A stretch of 64,000 nt of DNA from the NCBI GenBank assembly GCA_027575765.1, contig JANBPT010000035.1:1-64000 (forward strand). Reading direction: 5' to 3'. Position numbers and translations under genes: made by a program. Under the pieces are notes generated by a model. It searched no databases, was not told the DNA's origin, and worked only from the letters and a program-made list of their open reading frames with translations. How positions within the stretch are numbered: position 1 is the stretch's first letter; the number at the start of each line of letters is the position of its first letter. Shown piece by piece: positions 57,011 through 64,000 of the stretch. The stretch is from Tieghemiomyces parasiticus. Lineage: Eukaryota > Kickxellomycota > Dimargaritomycetes > Dimargaritales > Dimargaritaceae.

Positions 57011-57814
57011 GGCTGGATGGTAATCAAATTGAGGCTATGTAGCAATGTTGCCAATTTAGGTATAGCATGACTTATCAATAGCAGTTTGTCATTATTATGC
57101 CCCAGGATTAGGTGACAGGTAGGCCCACACCCGTATTTGCAATTATCAAATTGTAATGCTTGACCAAATGACACAATGATAAACATAGTGTAATGCTAGA
57201 CCCATTATGGTGCCATTCCAGCTCACCCAATAACCCTGCTAAGCCTACTTCTGTCCTACAGATGCTTACCCATTTAGTTGGCACTACAACCTTAACATAC
57301 TATTACCATACTCTAAAAGAATATAGACACCCAATTTTATTGTTATTAGGCTACTACACAGGAGAACATTATGGTGAGGCACATCTGATGAAAAAGCATT
57401 GCTACCTGCCTGGTTCTTATACCACAAAATTCCCAGGATACTACTATTGGGAGTCTGAGACCTGCCGTGATTCCTTGTTGCATTACATTGCAATGAAGTT
57501 TGATATGCTGACCCACACTGTAAGAAGCTGGTCCACATCAGCAGGAGCTATCATCATTACTACACAGGCCAAGGCTTGCTCAGGTCTTGGAGGATTAGGC
57601 ACAGATTTGCCCATAAGCAGGGCCAAGCCAGTAGGTGCTAAGTGGACATATTGAGCAGCCACCATGGACAGGCCTGCCAGGGCCACCACATCTGGCACAT
57701 GGCCTATACTTGGCAATGTTTCATTGTAGGCTGCTGCAAATAGCATTCTCAGTTGGTCTACAATAATTAATGCCATAGGAAAAGCATAATCAGCTTTGCC
57801 AGGGAATCATACCT
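57011..57814. other. Segment between inverted foldback copies
   Basis: AT-rich, 804 bp. Short open frames exist on both strands (plus 57193-57654; minus 57483-57776, then 57284-57538 in another frame). None has a recognised domain. If copies 1 and 2 are true terminal inverted repeats, this is the element's body with a decayed gene. Confidence 0.35.
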
Positions 57815-57946
57815 GTGCTGAGATTAGGCCTAAGCCTAATACCAAAACCGAAAGGCTATTCTATTATCACAGAATTTCTGGTTCTGAAATAGTAGACTTG
57901 GACTTTACCTTGGGATAATCTAATGTGGTGGTTCCCAATCACCACA
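57815..57946 (+). mobile_element. Foldback element copy 2 (132 bp)
   Basis: Begins TGTGCTGAGATTAGG and ends CCCAATCACCACA. It matches copies 1 and 3 over its full length. No target duplication is evident at its flanks (TACC on the left, GTAG on the right). Confidence 0.75.
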
Positions 57947-58393: not shown

Positions 58394-58466
58394 GGGCTTG
58401 ACCGGGATTCGAACCCGGGCCACGTGCACCCAAAGCACGTATGTTAAACCTCTACACTATCAAGCC
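58394..58466 (-). tRNA. tRNA-Pro (anticodon UGG)
   Basis: 73 nt including discriminator C. Acceptor GGCTTGA/TCAAGCC pairs fully. The D stem is GTGT/ACAT (one G-T). The anticodon stem CGTGC/GCACG holds loop TTTGGGT, giving anticodon TGG, which reads CCA proline codons. The T arm is CCGGG-TTCGAAT-CCCGG. The A box (TAGTGTAGAGG) and B box (GGTTCGAATCC) match Pol III consensus. No intron and no encoded CCA. It is the anchor of the repeat array at 58476-61890. Confidence 0.97.
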
Positions 58467-58475
58467 TTCGATGAT

Positions 58476-59121
58476 TGTGGTGCCGACACCCGCTTTGGGT
58501 CTTAAAGGCATCTAACGGGCATGTCAACATTGGGAGAGCTAAAACAATGGGCAAGCCCTTTGTGGGTGAGGCTAGGATTAAGTTTTAAGGTTATGCACCT
58601 TATGCAGGGGGGTGTAGACCCTCCCCCCTGCTCACCAGTATCAAAGTGGGCCCACACAGTTAGGCAAGGGCTTGCCAGGTATTTTTTTCCATTATATTTT
58701 TTGATTCCTTCTAGTAAAAGCTTTTATTTTGTTATTTTGTGTCAACAAACAAATCTCAGAACAATCCCATACTATTTGCTTTTTGCCACTAATGTAAACA
58801 ACCTGCCACCTTGCCATTTGGCCCAGACTGTTGTTGCATATGACCTAACCAAAGGACTCCATCCAGAGCCCAGAACCACAACTTGTAATGTAAGGGTATC
58901 AACGGTTTAGTAAGCAAGTCAAGAAAAGTAAAGACAAAAGTGTAATCCAAGAATTTGTCCCCTTTCCTAGTTCTGGGCAACAACAACCTGGGGTTATATG
59001 TCCCCAAGGTCACCAAGTTAAAACAAACTTTGTAAACATTAAACTATAGGCTTGCAACAGTATGACATAGAAACAAGGAAAGCTAAGGGTTAAGGCAGCC
59101 AAAAGTGCCGCAACCATCACA
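58476..59121 (+). mobile_element. Array 1 element a: solo-LTR-like, family I (646 bp)
   Basis: Starts TGTGGTGCCGACACC only 9 bp from the 5' end of tRNA-Pro(UGG) and ends ACCATCACA. GATT flanks it on both sides (58473-58476, sharing one base with the element start, and 59122-59125). The first 410 bp or so match the element at 62919. A degenerate TATA-like string (AGTATCAAAG) lies near 58638. No protein is recognised. Confidence 0.75.
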
Positions 59122-59125
59122 GATT

Positions 59126-59576
59126 AGTGGAGCGTTGATATAATCTACCCTCTTGAAGAGACCAGAGGATCCCTTGTGTAAAGCAACAACCTTTAGGTCA
59201 CAGTAGAAGGCCAACAAACCACTAGGGGAGGCAGAGAGGCCAATCCACAGGCACAAGACAATCCTCCAAACCCTTGGCCAATAGTATACTAAGTTTACTA
59301 TGGCTGGGGTTTCATACATTTTGATTTTATATGTTTCATACTTTTGGATTAATTTTGTTTCATCTACCAGGTTGCCATCAGTACCTATCAGTTAGGGCAA
59401 CCTGAGGGCACCACATTGCATTATCATTTTAGTTTTGTATTTAAGGCTGAACCTATTACACCTAATGGTTTGGGGAGTGTTTTTCCTGCCTTGCCTCAAG
59501 GCACCTAGCTATTATTAAATCAACTATCTGTTTGTCATATTATACTTTGCACCTTTTCCCCTTCCTACACTTCACA
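59126..59576 (+). mobile_element. Array 1 element b: solo-LTR-like, family II (451 bp)
   Basis: Starts AGTGGAGCG and ends CTACACTTCACA, bounded by GATT at 59122-59125 and 59577-59580. Near the 3' end it carries a TATA-like TATTTAAG, then GGGGAGTG, the hairpin TGCCTT-GCCTC-AAGGCA at 59487-59503, and TTATTAAA. Confidence 0.75.
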
Positions 59577-59580
59577 GATT

Positions 59581-60141
59581 TGTGGAGCCAAGATTGTATT
59601 TTGCGCTTCTCAAGATTCCTAGTATAGTAGAACATTTGGATAAGTCTGGATGACTTAACCAGACAAACTACAAAGGCCAGGGTAGAGGACTGAGGCCTTG
59701 GGAAGGATACCTTTTCAATTATGCAAACTCAGCAGATTTCCCATCAGCTGACAGGCCATTTTCCCATGACCTAAGCAACCTATTGTCTTACAACTTTTTG
59801 ATTTATTAAGTTTCATACCTGGTGTGTTGATACTAGGCCCAAGTCTAATACCATAACCAAAAGGCTATTCTACTATCACAGAATTTGTGGTTCTGAAATA
59901 GTAGACTTGGACTTTACCCTGGGATGATCTAATGTGGTGGTTCCCAATCACCACACCTGGAGGGGCCAATAGGCAAAATGGCAAAATGGCAAACCTTGGA
60001 GTAGCCAGCCAGGCTACAGCCTTATTGAGGATTCACAATTATTATTTATAGCTCAAGCTCCAGCATCTCTGAGCTTGGGGAGTGTTTTTCATCAACCCTG
60101 CCTTGGGGTACTATTGCTATTATATTAAACTACATTTCACA
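59581..60141 (+). mobile_element. Array 1 element c: solo-LTR-like, family II (561 bp with nested insertion)
   Basis: Starts TGTGGAGCCAAG and ends CATTTCACA, with a perfect 4-bp duplication GATT (59577-59580 and 60142-60145). Removing the nested 133-bp element and its 5-bp duplication leaves 423 bp, against 425 bp for the copy at 62009. TATTTATAG near 60045 is followed about 45 nt on by GGGGAGTG and hairpin ACCCT-GCCTT-GGGGT at 60095-60109. Confidence 0.85.
59823..59955 (+). mobile_element. Foldback element copy 3 (133 bp), nested
   Basis: Inserted in array element c with a perfect 5-bp target duplication CCTGG (59818-59822 and 59956-59960). The related element at 62009 has the uninterrupted CCTGG, so the insertion is proven by an internal empty site. 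Ends are TGTGTTGATAC and CAATCACCACA. Confidence 0.92.
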
Positions 60142-60145
60142 GATT

Positions 60146-61415
60146 TGTGGAGCTGTGGTAGGGGTCACAAGGGAGACAAAAAGACAAGGAGGTAGTCCTG
60201 CAAAGTTTTTGTAAGTGAAGGGAGGAGGGAGAGGGCCGCAGATGGCCCTGGGGTGAGTAACCAAGGTGGGGTGGAACCCAAGGGGAGGGGGGAAGATATC
60301 AGATGGTTTACTATTGTTTTATTGAGGACAGTCAGACAGGTATATATAGGAATAAGGTATAGACTGGTCCGACTCTACAAAGTAAGCCTGGCTTGTTCCA
60401 GCTAGGTGGGGCGGCACCTAGCCCATTGGATGGTACTAACAATAAGAACTAGCACTGGGTATGAGAGCCCTAAGATAATGGAGGTCAGCCAAGAGAGGAA
60501 AACGAAAGGGAAGGCTGACTGGTGGAATATTAGCAAATAGTTGCAGCTTGCGCCTTCCATGCTGGTTCATGGTAGAATGGAGTTCCATTGGAAGGACCAT
60601 GTACTTATGGCATGGTTGGCTTGAGCGCTTTTATGCAAGTAGGGTTAGTGTTAATTGTTTTCTACCAATGGCATGCATTATAGCACAGCCATTGGAAGAC
60701 TTGGCATTTGCCAGACAACAGGAGCCCTCACTTTTTTAGGTCTCTTGAAGGTTCTTAACCACTTGGTATACCTGCCAGTATGTCTCGTTTTGATATAATA
60801 ACCTTGCCACTTGTGGGAATGGCATCTGCAAGGTATCCACCACTGCCACCCATGTATAGAGATCCTCCTGTAGCACATGGGAAATTCCACTATAGGGCAT
60901 GGGAATTCCTGCATAGGTTTCCTCACCAGTTACCCTGAACCTACCCTGGCAGTAGCACTTTAAGGTTACATTGCCTTTGATCATATGGTCACAAGCCCAA
61001 CATCCTATAGACATCTAGATTGTTGTCCTATTATCTAGACTTGTTGCTGACTAATTATACAACCTGTCCTATTGTTCTTGAGGTTATGTCCTTGAGAGAT
61101 CATTGTTCTGTTCCTGCTCAACCTTTGTCTTGCCACCTGGGATTAAGTGGTACCAATTGCAGGTATCACTAATGCCATTGTCATTTGGGTATTTACCTTC
61201 ATATATATACCCTGGGCACCTGCTCTTCTATGTTCTGGGAGTGTTTGCCCTGCCTTGCCTCCAGGCAACCCCCTCAAGTTTCCCTTGGTTCATTTGTACT
61301 TTCTTGCCCCAAGTATTTTCTACCTTAATGAAGCTCATCTCTCTCATCTGTTAAGATAGTGATTAGGTTACTGAAGTATCTGACCTTAGGGTTTAATATC
61401 TAGGTAACCTTCACA
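60146..61415 (+). mobile_element. Array 1 element d: long LTR-ended unit (1270 bp)
   Basis: Starts TGTGGAGCTGTGG after GATT and ends AACCTTCACA before GTTT (one mismatch to GATT). The 3' part has the family II layout: TATATATATA near 61200, GGGAGTG, hairpin TGCCT-TGCCTCC-AGGCA at 61251-61267. The 5' 900 bp have no relative in the window and hold an open frame on the minus strand, so this may be a longer element or a composite. Confidence 0.65.
60736..61014 (-). CDS. Small open frame inside array element d
   Basis: 92 codons with its own ATG, encoding a Cys/Tyr/Gln-rich sequence that begins MSIGCWACDHMIKG and has a CxC just after (KCYCQGRF). The ATG follows AACAATCTAG, which resembles a 3' splice site. 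No family is recognised. It may be a piece of a mobile-element gene or chance. Confidence 0.25.
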   Translation of the reverse strand: MSIGCWACDHMIKGNVTLKCYCQGRFRVTGEETYAGIPMPYSGISHVLQEDLYTWVAVVDTLQMPFPQVARLLYQNETYWQVYQVVKNLQET

Positions 61416-61419
61416 GTTT

Positions 61420-61890
61420 TGTGATGTCAACCCCAGCTTTGACTCTTGAAGGTTTATAGGAGGTCACAACTATAACTGGAAAAAGTTTAAAATATGAAAC
61501 TCAATGAAAAAACCTTAGGAAGAGGTTCCAAAAGGGTTAGCCATGTAAGACATTATCTCAATGTATGCAGATCCTTTATGGCCTGTCTACTATATAATCT
61601 GGTCCCAGGTATCAAAATGCAGGGCCTGGCAGCTTTTTCTGTACTTTCTTATTTTTGTAGTGGCACCCATCGCCACTTTCATTTAGTAAACTTATGTTAG
61701 CATCAACCCTTTAAGCCTGTTTAATATTTTTGCCATTACTTGCATTTACATCTGTGAATTATCATCCATTTTTATTGTGCATTGCAGATTCGGTTTTTCC
61801 ACTTCCGGCAGTATAATTTTGGGTTTTCTATCTTCTTGCTGAGCACCATTTGGAGGACGTATCAGACTCTGAAAAATGGTACACTTCACA
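61420..61890 (+). mobile_element. Array 1 element e: solo-LTR-like, family III (471 bp)
   Basis: Starts TGTGATGTCAACCCC and ends GTACACTTCACA. It matches the element at 62438 in length, start, TATA position (TATATAAT at 61591), hairpin (AGTGGC-ACCCATC-GCCACT at 61659-61677), following TTTAGTAAA and 3' end. Left flank GTTT and right flank TAAG do not match, so the outer duplication of this array is lost or altered. Confidence 0.7.
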
Positions 61891-61916
61891 TAAGAGACAA
61901 GAAAATTACGAAATCC

Positions 61917-61921
61917 AAAAA
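61917..61921 (-). terminator. Pol III terminator of tRNA-Pro(AGG)
   Basis: Five T on the minus strand, five bases after the discriminator base. Confidence 0.75.
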
Positions 61922-61926
61922 TATTA

Positions 61927-61998
61927 GGGCTCAACTGGGAATCGAACCCAGGACCACTCCCACCCTAAGGGAGTATTATACCACTAAACCATTGAGCC
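61927..61998 (-). tRNA. tRNA-Pro (anticodon AGG)
   Basis: 72 nt including discriminator C. Acceptor GGCTCAA/TTGAGCC. Anticodon stem CTCCC/GGGAG with loop TTAGGGT, anticodon AGG, read as IGG after modification and decoding CCU/CCC. T arm CTGGG-TTCGATT-CCCAG. A box and B box (GGTTCGATTCC) are present. No intron and no CCA. Same strand as tRNA-Pro(UGG), and likewise followed upstream by an LTR-like array. Confidence 0.97.
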
Positions 61999-62008
61999 AC
62001 ACAACAGT

Positions 62009-62433
62009 TGAGGAGCCCAGATAGGTATTTCCGCTCCTGAAGATTCCTGAGGGTCGACTCTATTACATAAGGTCAATGATACCAAATAGAGTTGACTACA
62101 AGGACCAGGGTAAAAGACTGAGGCCTTGGGAATGGAAACAATTCAATTATGCACCACCGGCAGATTTCCCACCAGCTGATGGTCTAAATGTCCCATGACC
62201 TAGACAACCTATTGTTCTACAACTTTTTGATTTATTATGTTTCATACCTGGAAGGGCCAATAGGCAAAATGGCAAACCTGGGAGTGGCCAGCCAGGCTAC
62301 AACTTTATTGAGGATTCAGAATTATTATTTATAGCCTGAGCTCCAGCACCTCTAAGCTTGGGGAGTGTTTTACCAACCCTGCCTCAGGGTACTATTCTTT
62401 ATTAAATTTACTATTGCCAAACTACGCTTCACA
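62009..62433 (+). mobile_element. Array 2 element a: solo-LTR-like, family II (425 bp)
   Basis: Starts TGAGGAGCCCAG 10 bp from the 5' end of tRNA-Pro(AGG) and ends CGCTTCACA, with perfect 4-bp duplication CAGT (62005-62008 and 62434-62437). It is clearly homologous to element c of array 1. TATTTATAG lies near 62322 and hairpin ACCCT-GCCTC-AGGGT at 62376-62390, then TTATTAAA. Confidence 0.87.
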
Positions 62434-62437
62434 CAGT

Positions 62438-62914
62438 TGTGAAGCCAAGCACGGCTTATCACTTTGAGGAGCTGGAATAGGCCGCGCCTATACAACCATC
62501 AAAAATAACAAAAGAAAAGAGACCGGGCGACCTCTGGGAGAGGCCCGGAAGAGACGGGGGGCTAGCCAGGCCCTCCACCAATTAGTGTTAATCTTTTAGT
62601 ATAGTCATAGTATAAAAGTCGGACCCAAGTATGTAACACAGGGCGGGCAGCTTATTCCCAATTTCTGTCCCATAGTGCCATCCGTTGGCACTATTCCATT
62701 AGTAAAGTCTAGTACCAATATTCTCTTAATCTTGCTTGTTGGTAACGTTTTCTAGATTTTGCATCAAGGTTTTCTCTGTCAATAGTTAACCTATCAAACT
62801 TTGCGTTACAGATTTGGACGGCCCTGGTCCAACTGTATCTTCCCAAACTCTCCACTTCGTTTTGGAGGTTCTTTTGAAAGCGGGACCGGCTTCCAGATAC
62901 CAGTCCGCTTTACA
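62438..62914 (+). mobile_element. Array 2 element b: solo-LTR-like, family III (477 bp)
   Basis: Starts TGTGAAGCCAAGC directly after CAGT and ends CCGCTTTACA directly before CAGT (62915-62918). TATAAAAG at 62611-62618 is followed by hairpin TAGTGCC-ATCCGTT-GGCACTA at 62673-62693 and ATTAGTAAAG, the same order as in the 61420 element. Confidence 0.82.
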
Positions 62915-62918
62915 CAGT

Positions 62919-63335
62919 TGTGGTGCCAACACCTGCTTTGCCTCTTGAAGGCATTTGACAGGCATGTCAACATTGGCAAAGCGTAAACATTAGCCAATTC
63001 CTTTGTGGAGAAGGCTAGGATTAAGGTTTAAGGTTACACGCCTTATGCAGGGGGATGCAGATCCTTTCCCCGCTCACCAGTATAAAAGCAAGCCCATGCA
63101 GTTAGGCAAGGGCTTACAAGCTATTTTTTCCTATCTTTCGGTTTATTTTAGTAAAAATTTATTCTTTTATTTTTATCAACAACTAACAGTGGAATGATCC
63201 CATACTATTTACATTTTGCTGTTAACATAAACAACCCTGCCTGTTGACATTTTCTCTCTGACTTGCCATTAGGCCCAGACCATTGTTGCATATGGCCTAA
63301 CCAAAAACCTCTGCCCAGGGCCAAGCACCTTATGT
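62919..63335 (+). mobile_element. Array 2 element c: family I, 5' part (interrupted)
   Basis: Starts TGTGGTGCCAACACC after CAGT and matches the element at 58476 for about 410 bp, including GCATGTCAACATTGG and the TATA region, here intact as TATAAAAG at 63081-63088. It stops at CTTATGT where a family II start follows. The 58476 copy continues AATGTAAGGGTATCAAC, so a later element probably inserted at ATGT. Confidence 0.75.
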
Positions 63336-64000
63336 TGTGGAGCCCAGATAGTTATTGGGGCTCCTGAAGATTCCTGGTTCAGTAGGGCTCTAGGGAAGGT
63401 CAGTCCAATTTAACCAGTGTAACTACAAGGGCCTGGGTGAAGGACTGAAGCCTTGGAAAAGGCAACACTTTGATTCTTACCAGCAGCTGATGGGCCCAAT
63501 TCCCATGATCTAAGGTGTTCTATGATGTCATAAATATTTAAACTATTGTATTTCGTTTATGAGGGTTACTGTGGTACCCACAAAGTAACCACCCAACCAC
63601 ACAACCATGCAATGTCCACCCACTGAGGATGCAACTTGCAGATCCCCTGCCACTACTGCCCAAGGTCACCAGTTGACCAGATTAACCTAGGTCCTGTCAC
63701 CCCCCCTCTAGTTTCTTCTCCACCTGTTAACTTACTTTACATACTATTTGACATTTGTGGTACCCCTGCTCTATCTCTCTCTCCATGCCCACCACACTTC
63801 TTACACTCTTGCTCTATCCATCTTGGTCCTTCTCACTTGCACCAGCCTTATGTTTGCTTTTAACCTTGCTACTGTTCACTGCTCTAGTCCTTGTGCAGCC
63901 CTAAGTAATGCCTACTATGGCCCCCTGTTTATTAGATGCTAGTACAAGCACCACAGTCACTGGCTGAATGAAAATAAAGGTATCAACTACCACCAGAATA
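63336..64000 (+). mobile_element. Array 2 element d: family II, diverged, runs toward the window end
   Basis: Starts TGTGGAGCCCAGATAG and matches family II for about 200 bp (CTCCTGAAGATTCCTGG, CAGCTGATGGGCCC, CCCATGATCTAAGG), then diverges. Near 63990 the string AAGGTATCAACTACC resembles the continuation of family I, so the interrupted element may resume there. The 3' boundary is not resolved. Confidence 0.55.

Follow-up and report, generated by a model that had tools for sequence, protein, structure and literature searches.

Both tRNA-Pro genes in the first 64,000 nucleotides of contig JANBPT010000035.1 of the fungus Tieghemiomyces parasiticus (Dimargaritales, Kickxellomycota; hereafter the window; contig label C643:1-64000) are preceded by an array of long terminal repeats (LTRs) that begins a few nucleotides upstream of the mature tRNA. 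We find comparable stacks at many other tRNA genes and at 5S rRNA genes of the same assembly. With a probability of roughly 90%, different Ty3/Gypsy elements integrated one after another in these stacks, each time at the position that the RNA polymerase III (Pol III) initiation complex sets at the gene. An original prediction, made from the sequence of the window, had placed both tRNA-Pro genes and their LTR-like arrays where we find them and had proposed serial insertion into one fixed target. This proposal is supported by gene-specific, repeated tetranucleotides (4-mers), a mixture of LTR families, an empty site, and full-length elements. Together with the position and orientation of the LTRs and a gradient of age along the stacks, these features were observed directly, and the observation is general in the sample.

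Sample and LTR families

The assembly comprises 46.5 Mb in 1363 contigs, which are designated here by C-numbers. A 946-aa protein encoded in the window had a single hit, the partial hypothetical protein IWQ60_010468 of T. parasiticus (97% over 91%). A genome search for tRNA genes yielded 63 scored genes among 1334 candidates, of which two were omitted (dense tRNA contig) and 61 kept. The loci that we fetched cover 48 of these 61 genes and contain six extra tRNA genes: two in the window, two in window-like loci, and two beside a fetched tRNA gene. Four of the resulting 54 genes had too short an upstream sequence and were dropped, leaving 50 scored genes with at least 60 nt upstream. A dense run of predicted tRNAs in C970 (L009, L046), which is probably mitochondrial DNA, was left out of all counts.

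The library of LTR families was cut from the stacks themselves, and some of its labels denote related families. The LTRs measure about 392-413 bp for family A (with a long variant near 640), about 425 for B, 400 for C, 477 for D, 332 for E, 445 for G, about 324 for H, 356 for I, 451 for K, 424 for M, 557 for N, and 657 bp for Q; other families exist. Because the library lacks the long A variant, stack 1 of the window is followed only through its first LTR in the stack counts.

LTRs begin at a fixed position upstream of Pol III genes

In the fetched loci, an LTR starts 8-11 nt upstream of the mature 5' end at 29 of the 50 nuclear tRNA genes, at a distance of 8 nt (three genes), 9 nt (13), 10 nt (10), or 11 nt (three). 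All six extra genes are occupied, and without them the count is 23 of 44. The scope of the original prediction was too narrow, since 5S rRNA genes are struck as well. All five 5S rRNA genes found with Rfam on five fetched contigs carry an LTR start upstream (4 nt in four cases, 5 nt in one), a proportion that is biased because three of the five loci were chosen for their resemblance to the window. Genome-wide, exact motifs for the starts of A, B/C, D, and G LTRs place an LTR at no fewer than 10 of the 47 listed 5S genes; the true number should be higher, since these motifs miss decayed starts and all other families. The 5S rRNA genes occupy 47 places dispersed across many contigs, without clustering. 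Only two U6 genes scored above the cut-off and neither lies beside a listed LTR start, a number too small for a conclusion.

A total of 34 anchored stacks with 83 listed members were identified, with one, two, three, four, or five members in 12, six, six, nine, and one stacks, respectively. The LTRs within them are arranged head to tail, and 81 of the 83 members agree in orientation (52 of 53 after removal of the 30 members that served as sources of the library). Anchor LTRs from outside the library sources have a single orientation (19 of 19).

LTR starts were also sought across the genome by exact motif. The motifs match 83 times for D, 51 for A, 68 for B/C, and 19 for G (reversed control: 0, 4, 0, and 0), and the A and D patterns, which also require a non-T some 21-22 nt upstream, miss about a quarter of the starts. 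Our list of 114 Pol III genes (61 nuclear tRNA genes, 47 5S genes, and six from the loci) is incomplete. Of the 221 motif starts, 23 lie 0-20 nt upstream of a listed gene, and all of these point outward. A further 23 gene-LTR pairs are separated by 21-2020 nt on the upstream side, again outward without exception, and the nine starts found up to 2020 nt downstream of a listed gene are divided six to three in direction. All other motif starts are distant from the listed genes.

Two alternatives would account for this placement in other ways. Integrases might recognize a motif in the DNA itself (a T-rich leader, for instance) and not the Pol III complex, making the tRNA genes incidental. Many gene-side 4-mers are indeed T-rich (TTTT, ATTT, TTTC, GTTT), but others read GAGA, GAAT, GGGA, CAGT, GGTA, and GTTG while the distance is still 8-11 nt at tRNA genes and 4-5 nt at 5S genes, and we regard this explanation as very improbable. 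Somewhat less credible still is the idea that insertion is broad and that selection spares only those copies just upstream of Pol III genes. A preference for harmless sites in compact genomes has been argued for dictyostelids (part of PMC5006619), yet a window of 8-11 nt, one orientation, and the reuse of one 4-mer are far sharper than selection acting on adjacent DNA would be expected to produce.

A further difference between occupied and LTR-free tRNA genes concerns the promoter region. A TATAWW sequence is present at -50 to -18 in nine of the 21 LTR-free genes (for example, in C563, C585, C1042, and C1131) versus one of the 29 occupied genes. Insertion of an LTR puts distance between the TATA-like box and the tRNA gene.

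Neighboring LTRs differ in family but share a junction 4-mer

Serial insertion of different elements into one target, each duplicating 4 bp, should repeat the gene-side 4-mer between unlike LTRs. Across the 34 stacks, both window stacks included, 16 of the 49 later LTRs are immediately preceded by the same 4 nt that stand at the gene side. When gene-side 4-mers were shuffled among stacks in 20,000 trials, the mean was 2.4 and the maximum 11. At least three of the four positions match in 28 of 49 cases, compared with a shuffled mean of 10.9 and a maximum of 23. These counts do not depend on how the library was cut, and they supersede an earlier statistic in which 15 of 30 four-nucleotide junctions equaled the anchor 4-mer. 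The junction 4-mers are gene-specific and repeated, not random as they might have been had the original prediction been wrong on this point. Clear examples, read from the gene outward, are a 5S gene in C1114 (GAAT, GAAT, GAAT, GGAT), a 5S gene in C1145 (GAGA, GAGA, GAGA, GAGA(T)), and a tRNA-Asn gene in C1052 (ATTT, ATTT, ATTT, ATTT(C)). In addition, the start-to-start distance of neighbors is often one LTR length plus 4: 397 for A-D, 449-450 for G-D, 481-482 for D-B/C, and 426 for B/C-D.

The family labels of adjacent LTRs differ in 46 of the 49 neighboring pairs. This mixture bears on the possibility that unequal crossing-over or tandem duplication of one unit beside a tRNA gene made the arrays, which the original prediction had considered. 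Duplication gives head-to-tail order, and the three same-family pairs (D-D, A-A, and H-H) may individually be so explained. However, crossing-over of a single unit cannot yield the 46 unlike pairs, and the repetition of a gene's own 4-mer between unlike LTRs, as well as the empty sister site described below, also speak against it. As a general cause it is refuted by the family mixture, and we give it very little weight.

An empty site and the order of insertion

One sister locus in the assembly has an empty site; the original prediction had proposed that such sites be sought by comparing strains. Contigs C426 and C563 carry tRNA-Lys loci that are 91-93% identical, with a single B LTR in C426 and none in C563. 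The empty sequence reads ...CT GAAA ACAAG-tRNA-Lys, with GAAA present once and five nucleotides before the tRNA, whereas the filled sequence reads ...TT GAAA [426-bp B LTR, TGTG...CACA] GAAA ACATG-tRNA-Lys. Thus, the B insertion in C426 made a 4-bp target duplication. In three other pairs (C345/C489, C398/C919, and C1145/C258), the downstream flank and the tRNA align while the stacks differ.

Many loci are present as two copies that are mostly 88-95% identical over kilobases (C426/C563, C585/C1043, C1058/C1077, and C545/C1098). It therefore looks as if two diverged copies of the genome are present in the assembly, whether from a hybrid, a heterokaryon, or an old duplication.

We also considered whether the stacks are in part artefacts of joined repeats. 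The assembly is divided into 1363 contigs, at least five of which end at or inside tRNA genes (C85, C267, C364, C461, and C860), and many of its regions exist as two diverged copies. Nevertheless, wrongly joined repeats would not show the 4-mer of their own locus at one junction after another, and both flanks of the single LTR in C426 align to the empty sister over kilobases. An origin of the stacks in misassembly is accordingly most unlikely.

If new elements are added beside the gene under the serial-insertion model, then LTRs should become older with distance from it. We compared 68 complete stack LTRs with copies sought in the fetched 334 kb, assigning a value of 65% wherever no match was found. 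The highest identity of an LTR to any other copy drops with rank from the gene, with medians of 93.5 (n=31), 89.3 (18), 88.6 (14), and 82.6 (5). The correlation of rank with identity is negative (Spearman -0.36, P 0.0025, n=68), and rank 1 differs from the rest (P 0.002).

Full-length elements and their polarity

The original prediction had suggested a search for complete copies, and Ty3/Gypsy elements with reverse transcriptase (RT) and integrase (IN) domains between LTRs are indeed found in stack position. Genome-wide, 27 IN cores and 48 RT domains were located, and by spacing some of the RT domains seem to belong to other kinds of element. In C1208, LTR C lies 9 nt from a tRNA gene (Asn by eye), and on its far side the letters show the primer-site-like sequence TGGTAGCG. 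Measured from the start of LTR C, RT lies at 2844 bp, IN at 4383 bp, and a second C start at 5270 bp, all on one strand. The same layout is present in C674 (5S gene, LTR G), C686 (tRNA-Val by eye, LTR G), and C948 (tRNA by eye, LTR D), where LTR starts are 5304-5306 bp apart. In two of the pieces as cut, L060 and L061, ARAGORN detected no gene, and the tRNAs there were called by eye. By coordinates, the layout also fits C647 (LTR D, 5S) and C366 (LTR G, 5S). An element with LTR A in C557, where no gene was seen, has, by coordinates, RT, IN, and two A starts 5354 bp apart on a single strand. A D start lies 397 bp past the start of its 3' LTR, a distance equal to one A length plus 4 bp. The possibility that the A-family start is a reversed 3' end was ruled out by the shared strand of RT, IN, and both A starts in C557.

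A primer-site-like sequence, TGGTAGCRAAGC, begins two nucleotides past the LTR end and may be a primer site for initiator tRNA-Met. The corresponding pattern gave 32 matches versus 14 in a reversed control; we relied on the nine that lie on the same strand and 1.9-2.5 kb ahead of RT, and also used matches in C366 and C896 with a G start one LTR length ahead. A genome-wide pattern of purine tract plus LTR for 3' LTRs gave no signal (10 matches versus 12 in the reversed control).

The four elements with a gene in view (C1208, C948, C674, and C686; families C, D, and G) read away from that gene. Family E is arranged differently. In C37, IN and RT are on the strand of a tRNA-Thr gene, and the purine tract GGAGGAGGAGGA adjoins a 3' LTR that itself adjoins the tRNA. 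The primer site lies 4.8 kb off; with an E LTR of 332 bp, the outer end of the element would stop 3-4 nt short of an outward-pointing A LTR. The direction seen in C37 recurs in a solo E LTR at the tRNA-Asn gene in C1052, and C160 may hold a second E-like element, to judge by coordinates from the 2.0 kb between primer site and RT. Among the full-length elements that we examined, those of families A, C, D, and G read away from the gene, with the 5' LTR on the gene side, whereas E reads towards it, with the 3' LTR on the gene side.

The five full-length elements have RT ahead of IN by coordinates, as in Ty3/Gypsy elements (Metaviridae). Pieces from C645 and C919 match the Pfam entries RVT_1 and RT_RNaseH, followed by rve or Integrase_H2C2, although rve in C645 falls below the curated cut-off. 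Among solved structures, the two Ty3 entries 4ol8 and 7q5b were the top matches for the RT pieces of both C645 (E 3e-69 and 4e-68) and C919 (E 3.5e-35 and 2.5e-40). On sequence grounds the elements are classed as Ty3/Gypsy, the RT comparison covering the C645 and C919 pieces. The IN sequences of C645 and C919 are 68% identical, and these share 39% and 45% with that of E. For IN pieces of C645 and C37, a foamy-virus integrase ranked above that of Ty3. Foamy-virus integrase makes 4-bp duplications, and the ranking is in line with the duplication observed here, which is suggestive only. No chromodomain matched in six pieces, all of which are broken or end before the IN C-terminus.

Observations that weigh against serial insertion

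Several observations count against repeated integration at one fixed position. At 21 of the 50 tRNA genes, no library LTR is found at the site. The fetched sample is centred on tRNA genes or arrays, and the share of LTRs elsewhere cannot be read from it. In relation to the scattered copies that the original prediction had weighed, LTR starts keep a fixed upstream distance in the sampled loci, but most of the 221 genome-wide starts cannot be assigned to a listed gene, so scattered copies are possible.

The exact gene-side 4-mer is missing from 33 of the 49 later LTR starts, and 21 of them match it at fewer than three of four positions. A junction length of 4 nt was recorded in 30 of 49 cases, yet this is partly built in, since many library LTRs were cut on the assumption of 4-nt junctions. 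Among the 22 junctions free of such cutting, 11 have 4 nt, three have 5 nt, and those other than 4 range over 2-7 nt; only three of the 11 four-nucleotide junctions equal the gene-side 4-mer. The anchor 4-mer recurs in the outer tail of six of the 19 stacks with a complete last LTR, some of which are not true ends.

Orientation has exceptions, namely an H LTR in C1114 and an L LTR in C919, both inverted. The former lies between an A LTR and an N LTR in a tRNA-Met stack (L040). The latter has a purine tract at its start, and it may belong to a gene past the contig end. A gene-free piece, C265:1-3527 (L006), has five LTRs in a ratio of 3 to 2, which is perhaps the meeting of two stacks. C645 and C919 contain coding remnants that point at the tRNA gene of the stack in which they lie, contrary to the outward rule, unless they derive from the stacks of other genes; these were not counted for polarity, which is based on families A, C, D, E, and G. 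Finally, the age order is weak when adjacent LTRs are compared (P 0.05): the proximal member is less diverged in 22 pairs and the distal one in 10, with five within 1%.

The two tRNA-Pro loci of the window

Both tRNA-Pro genes and the spacers of 9 and 10 nt between their mature 5' ends and the first LTR agree with the original prediction (Table 1). The junctions of array 1 required revision. The later ones read GATT, GATT, GATT, and GTTT as claimed (CACA-GATT-AGTGG, CACA-GATT-TGTGG, CACA-GATT-TGTGG, and CACA-GTTT-TGTGA), but at the gene side the sequence is CGATGAT followed by TGTGG, and this junction is not GATT because the preceding 4 nt are TGAT and GATT is one T short. We also find a closing copy, CA-GATT-CGG, that had escaped the earlier description. 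In array 2, CAGT was recovered at all three predicted junctions, and the stack extends past the end given originally, with an A-family LTR and then a decayed B-like start. Before insertion, the two tRNA genes were not some 50 bp apart, as had been estimated, but about 145 bp (9 nt plus the 136 nt of 61791-61926).

The long A variant is defined by an A match over 58476-58879 and by 58884-59120, which matches a stretch past an A LTR in C1052. Two repeats are later insertions within members of stack 1. The first, of ~133 bp, occurs in the window at 57814-57946 and 59823-59955 and in many fetched loci, inside LTRs and elsewhere, with copies mostly 85-100% alike, and looks like a young miniature element. 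The second, of 567 bp, is present in the window and in C612, C674, and C1156, with about 97% identity between loci; in the window it interrupts LTR Q close to its start, whereas its copies in C674 and C1156 lie downstream of 5S genes.

Table 1. Features of the two LTR stacks in the window (+, LTR reading direction, away from the tRNA)
Feature	Position	Strand	Remarks
tRNA-Pro (UGG)	58394..58466	-	Anchor of stack 1
Leader spacer, 9 nt	58467..58475		Mature 5' end to first LTR; ends TGAT
LTR, family A long variant	58476..59121	+	TGTGGTGCC...ATCACA
4-bp spacer GATT	59122..59125		
LTR, family K	59126..59576	+	91.6% to a stack member of another tRNA gene, contig C645
4-bp spacer GATT	59577..59580		
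LTR, family R (B-like)	59581..60141	+	~133-bp repeat inserted at 59823-59955
4-bp spacer GATT	60142..60145		
LTR, family Q	60146..61415	+	567-bp repeat inserted at 60154-60720
4-bp spacer GTTT	61416..61419		One mismatch versus GATT
Decayed LTR-like P	61420..61786	+	Outermost member of stack 1; start resembles family A
Closing GATT	61787..61790		Outer copy of duplicated target
tRNA-Pro (AGG)	61927..61998	-	Anchor of stack 2
Leader spacer, 10 nt	61999..62008		Ends CAGT (62005-62008)
LTR, family B	62009..62433	+	
4-bp spacer CAGT	62434..62437		
LTR, family D	62438..62914	+	477 bp
4-bp spacer CAGT	62915..62918		
LTR, family A	62919..63331	+	Beyond the interval of the original prediction
Decayed B-like LTR	63336..63470	+	Start only

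Comparison with known targeting systems

Wild-type Ty3 inserts in both orientations with 5-bp duplications, whereas the elements described here leave 4 bp, take one orientation, and represent many families at once. Like them, Ty3 of Saccharomyces cerevisiae is position-specific beside the Pol III start, via TFIIIB, although it lies about 12-15 bp upstream of the mature tRNA rather than 8-11 nt (PMC5911963 and PMC5006619, in part). Ty3/Gypsy elements that target Pol III genes are known from Saccharomycotina, Schizosaccharomyces japonicus, and dictyostelids, and 5S genes are among the known targets.

A close likeness exists to Tj1 of S. japonicus, a Ty3/Gypsy element whose insertions lie 5-11 bp ahead of the mature 5' end of tRNAs as well as close to 5S genes, in one orientation at Pol III genes (PMC4600332). 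It differs in its 5-bp duplication, compared with 4 bp at the empty site here, and in its same-sense orientation, which is opposite to that of families A, C, D, and G and shared by family E; the available part of its description does not mention stacking (PMC4600332). In Yarrowia lipolytica, LTRs of the Ty3/Gypsy elements Tyl3 and Tyl6 and solo LTRs occur at the starts of tRNA genes and of 5S genes, which are dispersed there; the primer site for initiator tRNA-Met likewise begins two nucleotides past the LTR, and an empty site is present in another strain. These elements make a 5-bp duplication, Tyl3 copies are few, and the accessible sections describe no serial stacks (PMC5014426). The elements described here thus depart from the 5-bp duplication of the Ty3/Tj1/Tyl3 group, the one empty sister site giving 4 bp.

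More distant parallels include DGLT-A of Dictyostelium, whose Ty3/Gypsy solo LTRs also lie upstream of tRNA genes, but at 13-33 bp and in either orientation, with no repeated exact target in the excerpts of its description at hand (PMC5006619, PMC5911963). A table footnote on dictyostelids records several tRNA-specific elements at one tRNA gene in some cases (excerpts of PMC5006619 and PMC5911963). Ty1 of S. cerevisiae also targets regions upstream of Pol III genes and has left many solo LTRs, but it is of the Ty1/copia type and is spread over about 1 kb rather than fixed at one nucleotide position (PMC5911963, in part).

The original prediction had regarded stacking of this kind as undescribed. 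This fits our limited search of open-access literature, which covered a single library and returned nothing on Tieghemiomyces retrotransposons, serial insertion, or repeated sigma/delta insertion, whereas several fungi have Ty3/Gypsy elements whose targeting of tRNA genes is well described. Targeting itself is known, and what is new here is the precision, the flush stacking (provisionally), the duplication of 4 bp, the existence of families with opposite polarity, and the host lineage.

Proposed mechanism and implications

The most probable sequence of events begins with an integrase that might be tethered to TFIIIB or another Pol III factor, such that the insertion position would correspond to the transcription start. 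To judge from the C426/C563 locus, the enzyme would cut the two strands 4 bp apart, at -5/-9 from the mature tRNA 5' end, and integration would leave the identical 4 bp on either side. Because the next element would reuse the same position, it would land between the gene and the older element, recopying the same 4 bp, and the stack would grow on the side of the gene. A solo LTR with 4-bp flanks would then remain once the two LTRs of an element had recombined. Polarity would be fixed family by family.

A further reading is that at least two Ty3-like lineages with opposite fixed polarity use one Pol III complex and that the order of a stack is the order of insertion, which would make the tRNA and 5S genes tape recorders of past integration. 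We lean only slightly towards this reading, and its probability was lowered on account of the coding remnants in C645 and C919 that face the tRNA genes. If it is true, the order of stacks would be comparable between genes, sister loci, and strains, and it may allow many retrotransposon families to be dated relative to one another with no need for a molecular clock. A related question is how tRNA genes keep their activity once an LTR separates them from a TATA-like box. Since several families look fixed, in two opposite directions, a comparison of integrases from this single genome could test what determines polarity.

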